Below are positions 5,212-30,502 of a stretch of 64,000 nt of DNA, piece by piece (within the stretch, counting starts at the first letter, position 1; each line of letters opens with the position of its first letter). A model generated the notes under the pieces. The model ran no database searches. It was not told where the DNA came from and saw only the letters and a list, made by a program, of their open reading frames with translations. The stretch is from Lacrimispora amygdalina. GTDB lineage: Bacteria; Bacillota; Clostridia; Lachnospirales; Lachnospiraceae. Where the stretch lies: assembly GCF_003432035.1 (NCBI RefSeq), contig NZ_QOHO01000049.1, forward strand, positions 1-64,000. Reading direction: 5' to 3'. The position numbers were made by a program, and so were the translations under genes.

Positions 5212-5240
5212 ATCATATACGGTCAAACAGATAATATCAA
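5212..5240 (-). promoter_or_regulatory. Sigma-A-type promoter for the two-component genes
   Basis: On the minus strand TTGATA (5235-5240), a 17-base spacer and TATGAT (5212-5217), about 30 bases before the preferred start of the response regulator. Confidence 0.6.
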
Positions 5241-5256
5241 CAGGGAGTTTTTTTGT

Positions 5257-6138
5257 TCATGGTAATGATTTACTTTTTACCAGTTCCATAAAATGCAGCA
5301 TTACCGGATTTAAATACTTATTCTGATGATAAATTATCTGATATTCCCGCTTCAGTTCAACACCCTGCAGGTGCAGGGCAAACAGCGTTCCCTTTTCCAG
5401 GTATCCGGACACCTGGTGTTCCGGCAGTATGGCAATTCCAAGATTTGTATAAGCTCCCCATATGATTGCTTCAATGCTGGTGCTTTCGAGGACAGGGCGT
5501 AGGATAAAATCATGCAGGTGAAAGGCAGATTCAGCCAGTTTTCTGGTCTGACTGCCTTTTTCTCTTAATAGAAAACGTTCTTCTTTTAAGTCCTCCAGTG
5601 TTATTTTCGCTTTCTGTGCCAACGGGTGGGAAGGACTGCAAACTAAAATTAACTGTTCTTTGGCAAATGGTTCAGTCAGCATTTTATCAGAGCTGCTTAC
5701 TCCCTCGGTAAGAGCCAGATCAAGCTGATTCTCCAGGATAGCGGTTTCGATTCTGTCGGAAGTGTCAACCTTTATATATGGCATGGGAACCTGACCACTT
5801 TCCGTAAAACAGTGAATGATATCAGGCATCAGGCAGGCTCCGATGGTGCTGGAAAATCCGATCCGCAGCGGGGTGGTTTGGTCCTGCTTTTTAAACTCCG
5901 AATCCATTTCCTGATAAAGTGAGGTGATGTGGGAGGCAAATTCATATAAATGGCGGGCAGCACTGGTCTTTTGAATCCCCCTCCCGGCCCGTTCAAACAA
6001 CCGGATGGAATACTCATTTTCCAGTTCCCGGATTGCCAGACTCACCGCGGGCTGGCTGATATTCAGCTTGTTTGCAGCAGCAGTAATGCTTTCTTCCTTA
6101 TAGACCGTGACAAAGATCATCAATGTTTTAATGGACAT
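5257..6138 (-). CDS. LysR-family transcriptional regulator
   Basis: A 293-residue LysR protein. The N-terminal winged helix-turn-helix reads MSIKTLMIFVTVYKEESITAAANKLNISQPAVSLAIRELE when joined across short segments. The C-terminal half is the periplasmic-binding-protein-like effector domain (TPLRIGFSSTIGACLMP onward). The ATG at 6136-6138 has AGGAGG seven bases upstream; the longer upstream open frame is intergenic. It diverges from the sulfate uptake and activation operon, as CysB, Cbl and CysL regulators often do. It is therefore a candidate activator of that operon responding to sulfur status; the effector is unknown. A palindrome lies between the genes. Confidence 0.93.
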   Translation of the reverse strand: MSIKTLMIFVTVYKEESITAAANKLNISQPAVSLAIRELENEYSIRLFERAGRGIQKTSAARHLYEFASHITSLYQEMDSEFKKQDQTTPLRIGFSSTIGACLMPDIIHCFTESGQVPMPYIKVDTSDRIETAILENQLDLALTEGVSSSDKMLTEPFAKEQLILVCSPSHPLAQKAKITLEDLKEERFLLREKGSQTRKLAESAFHLHDFILRPVLESTSIEAIIWGAYTNLGIAILPEHQVSGYLEKGTLFALHLQGVELKREYQIIYHQNKYLNPVMLHFMELVKSKSLP

Positions 6139-6151
6139 GATTTCCTCCTGA

Positions 6152-6184
6152 ATATCATATTTACATACTGGTAATATATGATAT
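6152..6184. promoter_or_regulatory. Palindrome, candidate LysR autoregulatory operator
   Basis: ATATCATATTTAC (6152-6164) faces GTAATATATGATAT (6171-6184) across six bases, an almost perfect inverted repeat starting 14 bases upstream of the lysR start codon. It contains the TTTAC/GTAA core that recurs in the palindrome at 6262-6277. Confidence 0.5.
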
Positions 6185-6261
6185 ATAAGCAAAAAAATAT
6201 GGTTATAGGGGAATAGATAAGGAAATTCTAACATATAGTGAAAGAAAAAGCAATAACATAC

Positions 6262-6290
6262 TTTACAAATATGTAAATAGGGATTAAACT
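6262..6290 (+). promoter_or_regulatory. Promoter of the sulfate operon with embedded palindrome
   Basis: TTTACA (6262-6267), a 17-base spacer and TAAACT (6285-6290) form a sigma-A-type promoter. The -35 hexamer is the left arm of a perfect inverted repeat TTTACA-AATA-TGTAAA (6262-6277), so a dimeric regulator could bind over it. The predicted transcript starts about 30 bases before the first gene. Confidence 0.55.
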
Positions 6291-6325
6291 TCCAGATAAC
6301 ACACGTAGCATGCGGAGGTTCATGA

Positions 6326-7357
6326 ATGAGAAAAAGAGGAAAAAAGCGGGCAGCAGCCCTGGTGCTGATTATCACAGCTGCAGTAATGTCTGCAGGATGT
6401 GCCAGGCGGGCAGATTCCGGAAAAGACGGAACAATCACAATCACCAATGTTTCTTATGATCCCACCAGAGAGTTTTATCAGGAGTACAACAAAATCTTTG
6501 AATCCTATTACAGGGACACCTATCAAACCGGAATAACGGTGGTGCAGTCCCACGGTGGATCGGGCAGTCAGGCACGTTCGGTCATAGAAGGGGCAAAAGC
6601 AGATGTGGTGACTCTGGCTCTGGCCCATGATATTGGCATGATTGAAAAGTCCGGTTTGATTGATTCCGGATGGATTAAGGAATTTGAGGGAAATTCATCA
6701 CCTTATACCTCTGCCATCGTGTTTCTGGTGAGGAAAGGGAATGAAAAAAAGATAAAGGACTGGTCTGATCTGATTAAACCAGGTGTGGAGATTATTACCC
6801 CGGATCCAAAGAGCAGCGGGGGGGCAAGCTGGAATTTCCTGGCTGCATGGCAGTACGCGAAAGTCACCTTTCATGGAGACGAGGAAAAAATGAAATCCTT
6901 TGCGGCAGACCTTTTTAAAAATGTTTCTGTTATGGATTCAGGGGCGAGGGGAGCCACCACTACTTTTGTGGAAAACGGGCAGGGAGATGTGCTGATTGCC
7001 TGGGAGAATGAAGCCATTAATACGGTGAAAGAGTATCCGGATCAATATGAAGTTATCACTCCCGGCATCAGTATTCTTGCAGAGCCCAGTGTGGCGGTGG
7101 TGGATGAAAACGCCCGCAGAGACGGAGCAGAGAAGGTTTCTGAGGAATACTTAAAATACCTCTATTCCGATGAAGCTCAGAGGCTGATCGGCGAATACGG
7201 ATACAGACCTTCCAATAAAAAGATTCTTTCTGAATTTTCCGAAAAGTTCGATCTTAATGTAAATCTTTGTACCATTGATGATTTTGGCGGCTGGGATACC
7301 GCCTATGAAACCTTTTTTGCAGACGGTGGAATCTTCGACCAGATTTACGAAAATTAG
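6326..7357 (+). CDS. sbp: Sulfate/thiosulfate-binding lipoprotein of ABC transporter
   Basis: A 343-residue substrate-binding protein. A basic N-terminus and hydrophobic segment end in a lipobox MSAGC with lipidated Cys25, so it is anchored outside the membrane. The Sbp/CysP signature follows: SHGGSGSQARSVIEGAKADVVTLAL (in two adjoining pieces), then GVEIITPDPKSSGGASWNFLAAW. The start ATG has GGAGG eight bases upstream. It is the first gene of an operon with two permeases, an ATPase and sulfate-activation enzymes. It would deliver sulfate or thiosulfate to CysT/CysW. Thiosulfate versus sulfate preference cannot be decided from sequence. Confidence 0.95.
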   Translation: MRKRGKKRAAALVLIITAAVMSAGCARRADSGKDGTITITNVSYDPTREFYQEYNKIFESYYRDTYQTGITVVQSHGGSGSQARSVIEGAKADVVTLALAHDIGMIEKSGLIDSGWIKEFEGNSSPYTSAIVFLVRKGNEKKIKDWSDLIKPGVEIITPDPKSSGGASWNFLAAWQYAKVTFHGDEEKMKSFAADLFKNVSVMDSGARGATTTFVENGQGDVLIAWENEAINTVKEYPDQYEVITPGISILAEPSVAVVDENARRDGAEKVSEEYLKYLYSDEAQRLIGEYGYRPSNKKILSEFSEKFDLNVNLCTIDDFGGWDTAYETFFADGGIFDQIYEN

Positions 7358-7372
7358 AGGGAGGAAAGTCAG

Positions 7373-8224
7373 ATGACAAAACAGTCAGATCCAACAGGAA
7401 AAAGCCAGCGTGTCATACCGGGATTCGGGCTGAGTATGGGAATTACACTGTTCATGCTTTCGGGCATTATACTCATTCCACTTGCGTCAGTGCTGGTATA
7501 TTCCTTTCAGTTATCCCCCCGGGAGTTTATAAGCCTGATTACAAAGACCAATGTGGTAAATGCGTTTAAAACCAGCCTGCTCTGTTCCCTTTTTGCCGCA
7601 TTTGTAAACAGTGTGTTCGGGCTGATTCTCGCCTGGGTTCTGGTGCGTTACGAGTTTCCAGGCAAACGGATTATGGATGGGCTCATTGAACTCCCATTTG
7701 CCCTCCCCACTGCAGTAGCAGGAATCACTTTGTCCAAGCTGTATTCAGATACGGGGATTATGGGCCGATTTCTTGGATCGTTGGGGATAAAAGCGGCATA
7801 TACGAAGACCGGACTGACCATCGCCCTGATTTTTATTGGAATACCATTTGTGGTGCGGTCTATTCAGCCGGTACTTGAGACCCTTGATCCACGGTATGAG
7901 GAGGCGGCTGCAATTTTAGGAGCCGGGAAATTTCATACGTTTAGAAGGGTAATTCTGCCGGAGCTTGGCCCTGCGCTTCTGACTGGATTCGGTCTTGCCT
8001 TTGCAAGAGGCGTGGGGGAATATGGCAGCGTGATCTACATATCCGGAAACAACGCCAGGAATCAGACACAGGTGGTATCTTATGTGATCATGCAGAAACT
8101 GAACTATGTGGATTATCCCGGGGCGACGGCGATTGCTCTGGTGATGCTTTTCCTGTCCTTTCTGGTTTTACTGTTTGTAAATATGATTCAGGTGCATCAG
8201 GCGAAGCGCACCAGCTGCTTATAG
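7373..8224 (+). CDS. cysT: Sulfate ABC transporter permease CysT
   Basis: A 283-residue inner-membrane permease with about six hydrophobic helices. The EAA loop (EEAAAILGAGKFHTFRRVILPELGP, split here by family register) couples it to the ATPase. The family hallmark of the CysT/CysU subunit is visible in PFALPTAVAGITLSKLY and ARGVGEYGSVIYISGN. It starts 15 bases after the binding protein with a GGAGG site and is followed 12 bases later by cysW. It forms the heterodimeric channel with CysW. Confidence 0.95.
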   Translation: MTKQSDPTGKSQRVIPGFGLSMGITLFMLSGIILIPLASVLVYSFQLSPREFISLITKTNVVNAFKTSLLCSLFAAFVNSVFGLILAWVLVRYEFPGKRIMDGLIELPFALPTAVAGITLSKLYSDTGIMGRFLGSLGIKAAYTKTGLTIALIFIGIPFVVRSIQPVLETLDPRYEEAAAILGAGKFHTFRRVILPELGPALLTGFGLAFARGVGEYGSVIYISGNNARNQTQVVSYVIMQKLNYVDYPGATAIALVMLFLSFLVLLFVNMIQVHQAKRTSCL

Positions 8225-8236
8225 GAGGGTAAATGG

Positions 8237-9073
8237 ATGAAAATAAAAGGTAAATGGATTCTCATTGGAATCAGTACGTTATTTCTTTTTTTCATGCTGG
8301 TCCTGCCTCTGATCTCAGTCATTGTCAATTCACTGAAAGAGGGTATGGGCTTTTATTTAAAATCATTGGCTGCCCCTTCTGTAAAATCAGCGTTTGGGGT
8401 CACTGTGCTGGCAGCTGTGACTGCAGTCGCCGTCAATACCATCTTTGGGATCGCGGCAGCATGGCTGATAACCAGATTTTCGTTTAAAGGAAAGCAGATT
8501 CTTTCTGCAGTCATTGACATTCCATTTTCCATCTCTCCCGTGATTGCAGGGCTTGCCTTTTTAATGACATTCGGGAGAATGGGATGGGCGGGAGGTCTGA
8601 TTGCCAGACTTAATGAGGCTATTGGAACAAATATCCAGATCGTATTTGCCGTTCCCGGGGTGGTGCTTGCGACTGTATTTGTCACATTTCCATTTGTATC
8701 AAGGGAAATCATACCGGTTCTTCTTTCCATAGGAAAAGAAGAGGAAGAAGCGGCGGCGCTTATGGGGGCAGATGGATTTACCATATTCCGGAAGATTACG
8801 TTTCCTCATATACGCTGGGCACTTCTTTATGGGGTGATTCTCTGTACGGCAAGGGCACTTGGAGAGTTCGGGGCTGTCCATGCTTTGTCAAAAACCAGAG
8901 GGGAGACATTTACTCTTCCTCTTGAAATCGATGCCCTTTATCTTTCCAATTCATCGGAATCCATTACCTCGGCATTTGCGGTTTCTTCCATTCTGGTTCT
9001 TATGGCGGTGGCAGTGCTGATCATACGGAATGTGGCGGAGCATCAGGCAAAAAAAAGTGAGGCAAAGCAGTAG
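8237..9073 (+). CDS. cysW: Sulfate ABC transporter permease CysW
   Basis: A 278-residue membrane permease of the CysW type. The N-terminal helix (WILIGISTLFLFFMLVLPLISV) is followed by the conserved DIPFSISPVIAGLAF segment, an EAA loop (EEEAAALMGADGFTIFRKI) and ARALGEFGAVHALS. Two ATGs lie close together at 8233 and 8237; only 8237 is in frame and has GGAGGGT upstream. It lies within the sulfate operon and partners CysT. Confidence 0.95.
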   Translation: MKIKGKWILIGISTLFLFFMLVLPLISVIVNSLKEGMGFYLKSLAAPSVKSAFGVTVLAAVTAVAVNTIFGIAAAWLITRFSFKGKQILSAVIDIPFSISPVIAGLAFLMTFGRMGWAGGLIARLNEAIGTNIQIVFAVPGVVLATVFVTFPFVSREIIPVLLSIGKEEEEAAALMGADGFTIFRKITFPHIRWALLYGVILCTARALGEFGAVHALSKTRGETFTLPLEIDALYLSNSSESITSAFAVSSILVLMAVAVLIIRNVAEHQAKKSEAKQ

Positions 9074-9094
9074 AGATTTAGTCAGGAGGGTCTT

Positions 9095-10159
9095 ATGTAC
9101 ATAGAACTGAAACATGTTGAAAAATCATACGGAGATTTTAAGGCTTCAAAAGAGGTGAATTTCGGCCTGAAAAAAGGAACACTGGCAGCTCTTCTGGGAC
9201 CAAGCGGAAGCGGAAAAACAACAATTTTGCGGATGATTGCCGGTTTTGAAACGCCGGATTCCGGTGATATCGTTATCGATCAGAAAAGAGTCAATGATCT
9301 TCCGGCAGCTGATAGAGGAATCGGTTTTGTATTTCAAAATTACGCATTGTTCCGATACATGACAGTTTTTGAAAATATTGCCTTTGGTCTGGAAGTAAAA
9401 AAGGTTCACAAAAAGCTGATTAAGGAACGGGTTATGGAGCTGCTGTCCTTAACCGGTCTGGAGGGGTTAGAGAAACGCTATCCCAACCAGCTTTCCGGCG
9501 GACAGCGTCAGAGGGTTGCATTTGCCAGAGCACTGGCACCCAGCCCCGGGCTTTTGCTTCTTGATGAACCGTTTGCAGCCATTGATGCAAAGGTGCGTCA
9601 GGAACTTCGCAGCTGGTTAAAGGAAATGATTCATAAGGTAGGCATTACCAGCATCTTTGTCACCCATGATCAGGATGAAGCGGTGGAGGTAGCAGATGAG
9701 ATTATTGTCACCAATCAGGGAAGAATTGAACAGATCGCCAGTCCATTTGAGATCTATAAAAATCCTACAACTCCCTTTGTAGCTGAGTTTATCGGTCAGT
9801 CCGCGAGAATGGATGGGTATCATAAGCTGAAGGGATTTGAAAAAGGTGATTACATGGGGGCGATCATCCGGCCTGAATTTGTGGAAGCATTTAAAAGTGA
9901 TAATTTAAAGTTTCAGGATGTGATGGAGTATTCGGAGGAGGGAACCATTGAAGAGATTTCCTTTCGTGGAAACTATCTGGAGGTACGGCTCAATGTAAAT
10001 GGAGTTTCCCTTACCACCCGCCGGTCTCTGGAAAGGCGTCCTGTTTCCATTGGTGAAAAAATGCATGTGATCGTTTACCGGATTTATGCTTACGATGACA
10101 AAAGGGCGTATCTGCTGGAAAATGCACTGTTAAACGGAGCTAATATCGTCACATTCTGA
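9095..10159 (+). CDS. cysA: Sulfate ABC transporter ATP-binding protein CysA
   Basis: A 354-residue ATPase. The Walker A motif is GPSGSGKTT near residue 34, the Q-loop VFQNYALFRYMTV, the signature LSGGQRQR, Walker B GLLLLDEP and the switch histidine in IFVTHDQDEA. A C-terminal regulatory TOBE-like region of about 110 residues follows (from MGAIIRPEFVEAF). It is 21 bases after cysW, with AGGAGG upstream. It powers import by the Sbp-CysT-CysW complex on the cytoplasmic face. Confidence 0.95.
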   Translation: MYIELKHVEKSYGDFKASKEVNFGLKKGTLAALLGPSGSGKTTILRMIAGFETPDSGDIVIDQKRVNDLPAADRGIGFVFQNYALFRYMTVFENIAFGLEVKKVHKKLIKERVMELLSLTGLEGLEKRYPNQLSGGQRQRVAFARALAPSPGLLLLDEPFAAIDAKVRQELRSWLKEMIHKVGITSIFVTHDQDEAVEVADEIIVTNQGRIEQIASPFEIYKNPTTPFVAEFIGQSARMDGYHKLKGFEKGDYMGAIIRPEFVEAFKSDNLKFQDVMEYSEEGTIEEISFRGNYLEVRLNVNGVSLTTRRSLERRPVSIGEKMHVIVYRIYAYDDKRAYLLENALLNGANIVTF

Positions 10160-28022: not shown

Positions 28023-28051
28023 TTGCCTATCTGCTTTCCCTATGCTATACT
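28023..28051 (+). promoter_or_regulatory. Sigma-A promoter of FokI-like endonuclease gene
   Basis: TTGCCT (28023-28028), 17 bases and TATACT (28046-28051), about 29 bases before the GTG start. Confidence 0.7.
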
Positions 28052-28079
28052 GTAAGAAAACTACAGTGAGGAATGAAAC

Positions 28080-29816
28080 GTGGCTGAGAGAACATTTGGC
28101 TGGGTACAGGAGGCCTATACCCTGGACAATTTAAAAAATGTGATATCCGTATTTGTAACGGATTCCAGAATAAACCGGCTGCTGAAAACGGATAAGATTC
28201 CAAGGCTCATTCAGGATGAGGACAAACGGGAGGAATTCATAAAAGAACTGGATCAGGAAGAAATCCGCATTCCCTATACCCATTTAAAAGGAAAAGGTAC
28301 ACCAAAAGGCTATACCAGAAGCAATGCACCCTGTTCCGGAATCATTCAGGCGGTACTTCCCGGACAGAGAAAAGAGTATCAGTCCGACTGGCCGGCAGAT
28401 TCATTTTTAAGATGGGCGGTCAGCATCGGCTTTCTCGATTATGACAGGGAGACTGATGAATGCTCCCTATCCGTTATGGGAAGGCAGTATGCCAAGGCAG
28501 AGGAAGGAAGCAAAGAAGAGGAAGAAGTATTAAAAACGGCTCTTCTTTCCTATCCTCCGGTGTGCAGAGTGCTGTCCCTTCTGATGAAGGAAGGGCATAT
28601 GACAAAATTTGAGATAGGTGCAAAGCTTGGATTTATTGGAGAAGCGGGATTTACTTCCATTCCCCAGTCCATGATTGTGGAGGGGCTTGGGGCAGCGCAC
28701 GAGAAGGAAGAAAAGACAAAGCTGCTTCAGGATACGGAAGGAACCAGCGATAAGTACGTCAGAACGATCTGCAGCTGGCTGATTTCTGTGGGCTGGGTGA
28801 AGAAAATACCGAAAGAGGTTCCCGGACTGTATGGGAGCGGGGAAAATACTGAGGTCATTCCCCAGTCCTACCAGCTGACTTTAAAGGGAAGGACCATATG
28901 CAACCATATAACCGGGGGATCCAGATGCAGGAAGATACCAAAGCGGGTGATGTGGGATATGCTGGCGACCAAAGCGGCAGACCGGGAATATTTAAGAAAC
29001 CGGAGAGCCCATATTATTATGTGCCTGGAAAAATCGGCACTTACTCCTTTGCAGATTCAGGAATATTTAAAGCAGAAGGGGCTGGAGGAAGAGACTGAAA
29101 CCATCCTTGACGATTTAAAGAGTCTGGAAAATATCGGACTGCAGGTTCAAAAGACCAGAGATACATACCGGATTACAGATGAGATTACGGGGCTATTGTT
29201 CCCGGAGACACTTAAGTCCTTCCTTCCGGTGAAATCAGAGGTTTCCATACTGAAGGATTATCTGCGGTCCCATTTAACCCACATTGACCACAAATACTTA
29301 ATTCTTGTAGATCTTGGCTATGACGGCACCTCAGACCGGGATTACGAGATTCAGACAGCCCAGCTGCTTACGGCAGAACTATCATTTCTTGGGGGAAGGC
29401 TTGGAGATACCAGAAAGCCTGATGTGTGCATTTACTACGAAGACAACGGACTGATCATCGACAATAAAGCATATGGGAAGGGATATTCCCTTCCCATAAA
29501 ACAGGCAGATGAGATGTACCGCTATATAGAAGAAAATAAGGAGCGCAGCCAGCTGTTAAACCCCAACTGCTGGTGGGACATTTTTGGCAAAGATGTGAAA
29601 ACATTTCACTTTGCTTTTGTGTCAGGAGAATTTACGGGCGGTTTCCGGGACAGGTTAAACCATATTTCCATGCGCTCCGGCTTAAAAGGAGCAGCAGTGA
29701 ATTCCGCTAATCTGCTTATTATGGCAGAAAAGTTAAAAGCAGGAACTATGGAATACGGGGAATTTTTCCGATTTTTTGATACCAATGATGAGATTTTATT
29801 TTTGCATGAATCATGA
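28080..29816 (+). CDS. FokI-like type IIS restriction endonuclease
   Basis: A 578-residue protein that resembles FokI (583 residues) along its whole length. At the N-terminus RTFGWVQ, SNAPCSGIIQA, WPADSFLRWA and LTKFEIG-like blocks match the FokI recognition subdomains. The C-terminal cleavage domain has LGDTRKPDVCIYY and IIDNKAY, placing Asp448, Asp461 and Lys463 at FokI Asp450, Asp467 and Lys469. The dimer residues Asp483/Arg487 of FokI are kept (Asp477/Arg481 in QADEMYRYIEEN). FokI cuts at a distance from GGATG; the same or a similar site is likely but unproven. Start is GTG with GTGAGGA upstream. No DNA methyltransferase gene lies in this window, although the gene itself contains GGATG (28214-28218). 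Confidence 0.93.
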   Translation: MAERTFGWVQEAYTLDNLKNVISVFVTDSRINRLLKTDKIPRLIQDEDKREEFIKELDQEEIRIPYTHLKGKGTPKGYTRSNAPCSGIIQAVLPGQRKEYQSDWPADSFLRWAVSIGFLDYDRETDECSLSVMGRQYAKAEEGSKEEEEVLKTALLSYPPVCRVLSLLMKEGHMTKFEIGAKLGFIGEAGFTSIPQSMIVEGLGAAHEKEEKTKLLQDTEGTSDKYVRTICSWLISVGWVKKIPKEVPGLYGSGENTEVIPQSYQLTLKGRTICNHITGGSRCRKIPKRVMWDMLATKAADREYLRNRRAHIIMCLEKSALTPLQIQEYLKQKGLEEETETILDDLKSLENIGLQVQKTRDTYRITDEITGLLFPETLKSFLPVKSEVSILKDYLRSHLTHIDHKYLILVDLGYDGTSDRDYEIQTAQLLTAELSFLGGRLGDTRKPDVCIYYEDNGLIIDNKAYGKGYSLPIKQADEMYRYIEENKERSQLLNPNCWWDIFGKDVKTFHFAFVSGEFTGGFRDRLNHISMRSGLKGAAVNSANLLIMAEKLKAGTMEYGEFFRFFDTNDEILFLHES

Positions 29817-29833
29817 CAGGGAGGTTTGATACT

Positions 29834-30502
29834 ATGACACTGGGAGATTATCTTCCCTTTTGGAACAAGCTGACAGATAAACAGAGAGAGAAGCTGTCAA
29901 CGAAATCAAAGAAAATCAGATTTGAAAAGGGAATGCTGGTACATGGGGAATCCGATGAATGCAGCGGTTTTCTTCTTGTAACAGAAGGTCAGTTAAGAGT
30001 GTTTACCATATCGGATGAAGGGCGGGAACTGACTTTATACCGGTTGTTTGAACGGGATATCTGTCTGTTTTCCGGTTCCTGTATGGTGAAAAACATTCAG
30101 TTTGATGTGACAGTGGAGGCAGAACAGGATACGGTAGTGTTCCAGATTCCCCCCGATGTCTATCGTGATTTAATGGAAGAGTCGGCTGTAGTCTCAAACT
30201 TCACCAATGAACTGATGGCATCGAGGTTCTCTGATGTCATGTGGCTGATGGATCAGGTGATGAACAAGAAAATGGATGGAAGACTGGCTGCATTTTTACT
30301 GGAAGAATGCAGACTCAATGAAACAAAGGAACTTTCCATTACCCATGAACAGATTGCCCGGCATTTAGGTACTGCCAGAGAAGTGGTAACCCGTCTGCTT
30401 CGCCTGTTTCAGGGAGAAAATCTGGTGAAGATTACCCGTGGAACTGTGGAACTGCTTGACGAAGATGGTCTCGAAGTGCTGGCTGCCCATAGTCTTAGAT
30501 AA
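29834..30502 (+). CDS. Crp/Fnr-family transcriptional regulator
   Basis: A 222-residue regulator with an N-terminal cyclic-nucleotide-binding-type beta barrel and a C-terminal HTH_Crp (ITHEQIARHLGTAREVVTRLLRLF). A start at 29813 overlaps the endonuclease stop, but the ATG at 29834 with GGGAGG nine bases upstream is better placed. It keeps cysteines in DICLFSGSCMV that are common in clostridial members, but no classic N-terminal Fnr four-cysteine cluster. It sits 17 bases after the FokI-like gene, probably on one transcript. A SulP transporter with its own promoter follows. Effector and targets are unknown. Confidence 0.92.
   Translation: MTLGDYLPFWNKLTDKQREKLSTKSKKIRFEKGMLVHGESDECSGFLLVTEGQLRVFTISDEGRELTLYRLFERDICLFSGSCMVKNIQFDVTVEAEQDTVVFQIPPDVYRDLMEESAVVSNFTNELMASRFSDVMWLMDQVMNKKMDGRLAAFLLEECRLNETKELSITHEQIARHLGTAREVVTRLLRLFQGENLVKITRGTVELLDEDGLEVLAAHSLR

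Follow-up and report, generated by a model that had tools for sequence, protein, structure and literature searches.

The 64,000 nucleotides of Lacrimispora amygdalina DNA analysed here (the window) carry a gene, R, that encodes a full-length FokI-type endonuclease (Table 1). The four FokI Pfam domains lie in one chain, all above cut-offs and in the order found in FokI, and phmmer aligns residues 4–572 of R with residues 6–577 of FokI (2fok_A) at an E value of 1.8e-127. Domain content and alignment agree with the original prediction of a complete FokI-type enzyme, and a match over the full length rules out chance or fragment similarity. A search of NCBIfam returned no match for R. Its closest named public orthologues are from Lacrimispora (89–93% identity), and it is the single FokI-type R gene in the genome to which the window belongs (G000).

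Table 1. Features of the R locus in the window and of the methyltransferase pair on another contig of the same genome
Feature	Position	Strand	Details
R gene, full-length FokI-type (Type IIS) restriction endonuclease	28080..29816	+	GTG start; 578 aa
FokI_D1 recognition subdomain	28089..28496	+	aa 4-139; PF02981, E 2.7e-32
FokI_dom_2 recognition subdomain	28518..28922	+	aa 147-281; PF02980, E 3.4e-41
FokI_D3 subdomain	28962..29150	+	aa 295-357; PF16902, E 2.5e-15
FokI cleavage domain (FokI_cleav_dom)	29235..29789	+	aa 386-570; PF09254, E 1.5e-56
Promoter-like TTGCCT-17-TATACT, TG before second hexamer	28023..28051	+	promoter-pattern scan
Ribosome-binding-site-like GTGAGGA, 5' of GTG start	28066..28072	+	sequence; similar purine-rich stretch in aligned relatives
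Crp-family regulator gene	29813..30502	+	ATG overlaps R end by 4 bp
M1, D12 adenine methyltransferase	G000:C99:6711-7763		350 aa; PF02086
M2, D12 adenine methyltransferase	G000:C99:7754-8602		282 aa; PF02086

Alignment with FokI places D448, D461 and K463 of R on FokI D450, D467 and K469, which we take to be the catalytic residues, and D477 and R481 on D483 and R487, presumably the dimer-interface pair. Retention of these five positions had been proposed from the R sequence; they prove invariant in 26 of 26 core R orthologues and in all 11 relatives from other genera. A frameshifted genome (G024, with R and M1 disrupted) was dropped from the residue counts and from the dN/dS analysis below, and G009 contributes no R. 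Ten of the 11 other-genus relatives have a methyltransferase adjoining R, and the locus of the eleventh (L051) ends at a contig end. One of two plasmid-borne relatives deviates at both dimer positions.

Promoter-like sites in the scan are no more numerous than in shuffled sequence (6 versus 5.1); in an alignment of 17 sequences upstream of R, from which L033 and L038 were excluded, the TATACT box is retained in 14. The gene neighbourhood is as first described, a FIST/chemoreceptor (MCP) pair upstream and a Crp/Fnr-type regulator followed by SulP downstream. Comparison of 18 core-type loci disposes of two candidate partners for R. The Crp-family gene follows R in 13 of them, including two titled Hungatella, and its absence next to R in the other five argues against an obligate control gene; the FIST/chemoreceptor arrangement is found only in the window and in L030. 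Other neighbours are steadier: among the 15 closest public loci (L030–L044) SulP lies downstream of R in all 15 and a DUF4317 gene upstream in 14, each at varying distance, with L033 shortened by a contig end.

The original prediction had also pointed to the lack of a neighbouring methyltransferase, and this was borne out. A search for D12-family methyltransferases across the entire contig that holds the window (C120) gave no match. Elsewhere in G000 the D12 family has nine matches, among which there is a sole tandem pair, M1 and M2, at G000:C99:6711-8602, with genes that overlap by 10 bp. The whole-genome search for an M.FokI-like methyltransferase that had been proposed as a check therefore leads to a different contig. 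Relatives of M1 or M2 are found in none of the 18 closest orthologous R loci (L030–L046 and L059; up to 8 kb per side, some shortened by contig ends), and no endonuclease was found beside M1-M2 on C99, where the pair is flanked by a GGDEF protein gene and a polyamine-transporter-like operon (the latter named from sequence).

M1 covers positions 1–339 and M2 positions 362–641 of a single 646-position Type II methyltransferase model from PADLOC, and the DPPY motif is present in 27 of 27 M1 and 27 of 27 M2 sequences. M.FokI is, we assume, a fusion of two methyltransferase units. Fused methyltransferases of the M1-M2 kind adjoin a FokI-type R in two of three plasmids inspected (Weissella and Lacticaseibacillus); the third, from Psychrobacter (L132), has the fused enzyme and no match to a FokI-type R. 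Since the pair fits two halves of one model and has fused counterparts on plasmids, it resembles an M.FokI-type enzyme in two pieces, and M1-M2 is likely to be the missing half of the system to which R belongs. With M1/M2 at G000:C99, R is not a solitary endonuclease in a genome without a FokI-type methyltransferase; among the options first listed, protection encoded elsewhere is strongly supported by a pair of this type on another contig and its conservation throughout the genus. Other D12 genes were considered as protectors and rejected, because G000 has only the one tandem pair and because three R-bearing single-contig genomes (G005, G015 and G023) contain exactly two D12 matches each, namely M1 and M2.

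Both halves are core to the genus. Of 25 genus genomes 24 contain R, as do all 22 high-quality ones; the genome without it (G009) is 67% complete. M1 and M2 are present, adjacent, in all 25. R is full length in 23 of the 24 genomes that carry it. The exception is G024, a single-contig assembly with frameshifts in R and M1 (L018 and L090) and a broken rpoB; because M1 and rpoB are disrupted together with R, an assembly error is likely. M1-M2 follows the GGDEF gene in ten of ten genus genomes examined, with transporter genes nearby in nine (within the 18 kb fetched). In three genomes of other genera the neighbours of M1-M2 differ from those in Lacrimispora, which may mean that the pair has changed place or was acquired repeatedly.

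Eight single-contig genomes contain both R and M. For six of them the distance between the halves was computed, assuming circular chromosomes, and amounts to 1.21–1.63 Mb, or 23–32% of the chromosome; in the remaining two (G019 and G024) the R and M coordinates differ by about 1.5 Mb. Separated R-M systems have been defined by genes more than 4 kb apart (PMC3488263, in the part drawn on here). R and M1-M2 lie well beyond this distance, and linked orthologous systems are known.

Beyond the genus, a family sample of 397 genomes contains an R relative in 11 and an M1 relative in 36 (E 1e-20). Core-type R (68–100% identity) occurs in five of the 397, two Lacrimispora, one genome of genus g34 and two of g47, and the same five are those with M1 at 78% identity or above. 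The core M1-M2 pair is confined to three genera of the sample, and its co-occurrence with R partly reflects shared ancestry within one clade; both g47 genomes hold R and the M halves, each with more than 5% contamination. In the other six R-bearing genomes R, or a piece of it, lies on a contig with an M1 relative: R is split over two contigs in G293, the first piece with M1, it contains stops in G315 and G409, and G190 has a second, partial R on a contig without M1. A separate observation concerns G087, which carries a core-type M1 at 67–68% identity (L218, G087:C95, 477-1538). M2 is absent beside it and R was not found in this assembly, from which rpoB is also missing; it is the single case of M1 at 68% without R in the family sample.

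Purifying selection acts on all three genes. Median pairwise dN/dS, taken over pairs with dS of 0.1–1.5, is 0.082 for R (70 of 325 pairs), 0.064 for M1 (104 of 351) and 0.079 for M2 (83 of 351), with 0.037 for rpoB (337 of 351). Over 325 pairs the protein distances of R correlate with those of M1 at 0.91, of M2 at 0.90 and of rpoB at 0.85; restricted to the genus (253 pairs), the values are 0.91, 0.88 and 0.81. Low dN/dS and correlated distances fit long vertical inheritance of genes that presumably work.

These patterns bear on two other accounts of R. That it is the isolated leftover of a recent horizontal transfer might be suggested by 13 plasmid records with related FokI-type genes and by one genus genome with a second, IS-broken FokI-type system, but R is present in 24 of 25 genus genomes, is syntenic in the 15 closest public loci and has distances that correlate with those of rpoB. 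Presence and synteny rule out a recent mobile insertion, and we give the leftover account almost no credence. The second system (L219, G006:C89:24000-38000, 5234-9911) comprises a fused 672-aa M.FokI-like methyltransferase and an R of which a 260-aa C-terminal ORF remains, with IstB (IS21) and rve-type transposase genes adjoining.

The other account holds that R no longer restricts, whether silent or put to another use such as recombination or DNA turnover, and that M1/M2 are separately regulatory. It would accommodate the lost linkage of R and M, as well as core, vertical inheritance that is atypical of restriction systems: in the portion of Oliveira et al. 2014 (PMC4176335) that we draw on, core genomes hold about 4% of R-M systems. 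Catalytic and dimer-interface residues kept in 26 of 26 orthologues, a median dN/dS of 0.08 and full length in 23 of 24 genomes nevertheless make a loss of restriction distinctly improbable, and the silent enzyme that had been offered as one option is further disfavoured by the TATACT box retained in 14 of 17 upstream regions.

More distant relatives of R bear on the history of the pairing. At 16 further public loci (L047–L058 and L060–L063; R identity 45–64% where unbroken), relatives of M1 and/or M2 adjoin R in 14, and in 11 of these M1-M2 precedes R; the two loci that lack them (L051 and L056) are shortened by contig ends. In the R tree the core R sequences fall inside this operon clade: core plus ten operon-type sequences have 100/99 support, and the deeper nesting of core R 88/84 and 99/96. 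This careful R tree omitted L219 and L130 (partial, very long branch). In the M1 and M2 trees, both quick trees made without bootstrap, the core pair falls outside the operon methyltransferases, and core M1 is nearest to G087 and Streptococcus phage Javan105. The conflict is significant in AU tests, for which the groups were named after the trees had been seen: the R data reject the M topology (p 0.0008), and the R topology is rejected by the M1 data (p 1.3e-82) and by the M2 data (p 6e-6). A weaker test on R, with the closest operon R sequences as a clade beside rather than around the core, gave p 0.04. Taken together, the trees suggest that the core M1 and M2 are not the original partners of the R lineage, and place them in another lineage, kin to the pair on the Streptococcus phage. 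The original prediction had held that a distant M.FokI-type gene would make this an ordinary split R-M system. Split it is; 'ordinary' does not fit a genus-wide system whose methyltransferases seemingly are not the original ones.

Two further loci deserve description. L050 (6966-10632) is a hybrid operon, on one metagenome-assembled contig with ambiguous bases, in which an old-type M1 (78% identical to that of L049) and R are followed downstream by a core-type M2. This M2 is 68% identical to that of G000 and 44% to that of L049, and its grouping with the old M2 sequences is rejected (p 1.2e-18); the hybrid suggests that M2 of either lineage can serve to protect against this type of R. Integrase-bearing Streptococcus phage Javan105 (L234, 4754-7800) encodes relatives 71% and 63% identical to core M1 and M2, along with a third methyltransferase and an RloC-annotated gene, a set that is possibly an anti-restriction cassette. 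An R relative occurs in none of the phage records, and viral contigs scanned with M1 and with R yielded no relative.

We considered which site the system might recognize. The occurrence of GGATG in the R gene itself (28214-28218) and elsewhere in the window had been pointed out, and our count of GGATG/CATCC in the window, 161 sites against 158.8 expected, confirms it; extrapolation from the window gives about 15,000 in the genome. Over 150 kb GGATG has an observed/expected ratio of 0.88 and ranks 80th of 1024 pentamers. It is only mildly under-represented, and site avoidance is uninformative.

The FokI residues that we take to contact DNA are Q12, N13, R79, W105, S106, N217, E220, K225 and R228, with W219 neighbouring. 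By alignment, core R keeps Q12, R79, W105, E220, K225 and R228; N13 is replaced by E and S106 by P in 26 of 26 orthologues, W219 by T in 26, and N217 by Q in 25 and K in one. Given these replacements, the site of R may not be GGATG. Relatives from other genera share most of them, with N13E in 11 of 11, W219T in 10 of 11, S106P in 9 of 11 and S or Q at position 217 (none of the 11 has N). As the remaining contact residues are kept and the changes are common to these relatives, R is expected to recognize GGATG or a close variant.

A more radical reading of the same residues is that R has drifted to a new specificity, that M1/M2 are an unrelated orphan pair and that a third, unrecognised methyltransferase or site avoidance protects the chromosome. 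In its favour are the four replaced positions, the trees in which M1/M2 are apparently not the historical partners of R, and the only mild under-representation of GGATG (0.88). Against it, largely the same replacements occur in the other-genus relatives, 10 of 11 of which have an adjoining methyltransferase; three genomes hold no D12 gene besides M1 and M2; core-type M1 and R coincide in five of five family genomes; and the L050 hybrid joins a core-type M2 with this type of R. We regard this reading as improbable, if somewhat less so than a loss of restriction.

Several described systems offer points of comparison. R has all four domains and the catalytic residues of FokI, and a model of a fused 646-aa Type II methyltransferase is matched in one half by M1 and in the other by M2; the system differs from FokI in that the M halves are separate genes more than 1 Mb from R and that several contact-region residues are changed. 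The M1-M2-R operons of other Lachnospiraceae and Ruminococcus (L047, L049, L052, L054 and others) share the R clade and the separate M1 and M2, whereas their methyltransferases lie directly upstream of R and belong to another lineage. At L047, L049, L052 and L054, R is 61–62% identical to core R, M1 39–42% and M2 44–45% identical to the core pair.

In separated R-M systems, too, cognate R and M lie far apart. For 57 solitary endonucleases, in 11 groups, Ershova et al. 2012 (PMC3488263) predicted membership of such systems; as of that year only a Type I case in S. aureus had been proven, according to the part of the paper used here, and its main text does not mention FokI. The present case differs in being Type IIS and genus-wide and in the evidence that its methyltransferases were replaced. 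MhoVII of Mycoplasma hominis, in the portions of the report used here (PMC12898733), likewise has two methyltransferase activities and an asymmetric GATG/CATC site, and both activities are required for complete protection against FokI; it differs in its fused M, in an R without an identified FokI-like catalytic core motif and in its presence in only some isolates. The part of a 2026 review drawn on here (PMC13076061) mentions GGATG only for a prophage methyltransferase. Searches of openly licensed papers (FokI and Lachnospiraceae, Hungatella methylomes, Lacrimispora R-M, GGATG and Clostridium) did not find the system. Oliveira et al. warn, in the section used here, that comparative genomics alone cannot link R and M genes that are not co-localised (PMC4176335), and the warning applies to the present pairing.

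Our preferred explanation, to which we assign a probability of roughly 0.8, is a functional Type IIS R-M system whose halves, both core, lie far apart and in which the linked methyltransferases have been replaced by an unlinked pair. R would recognize a short asymmetric sequence (GGATG or one close to it) and cut beside it as a FokI-type dimer, while M1 and M2 would each methylate one adenine, one per strand, to shield the chromosome. R would derive from an ordinary M1-M2-R operon whose linked methyltransferases were lost in the lineage leading to Lacrimispora and its relatives; protection would have been taken over by a second, unlinked M1-M2 pair from the same superfamily, and both halves would then have been inherited vertically. 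We infer enzymatic activity, the specificity shared by R and M, the strand served by each methyltransferase and this order of events from the genomic patterns.

Linkage and mobility are what one expects of restriction-modification genes. With the likely protector of R more than 1 Mb distant in almost all species of the genus, a defence system of a usually mobile kind seems to have become fixed in these bacteria. A Type IIS system split over more than 1 Mb, in 24 of 25 genomes and with apparently replaced methyltransferases, would offer a natural case in which to study how a toxic endonuclease can persist unlinked. The system also predicts a genus-wide methylation mark, relevant to transforming these organisms. 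More speculatively, it may have been domesticated, GGATG-like methylation and the endonuclease having both become core to Lacrimispora and related genera once the unlinked pair had assumed protection, the methylation perhaps serving regulation or genome maintenance and being policed by R. If that tentative idea were true, neither half could be lost or moved alone, unlike what is expected of a selfish module.
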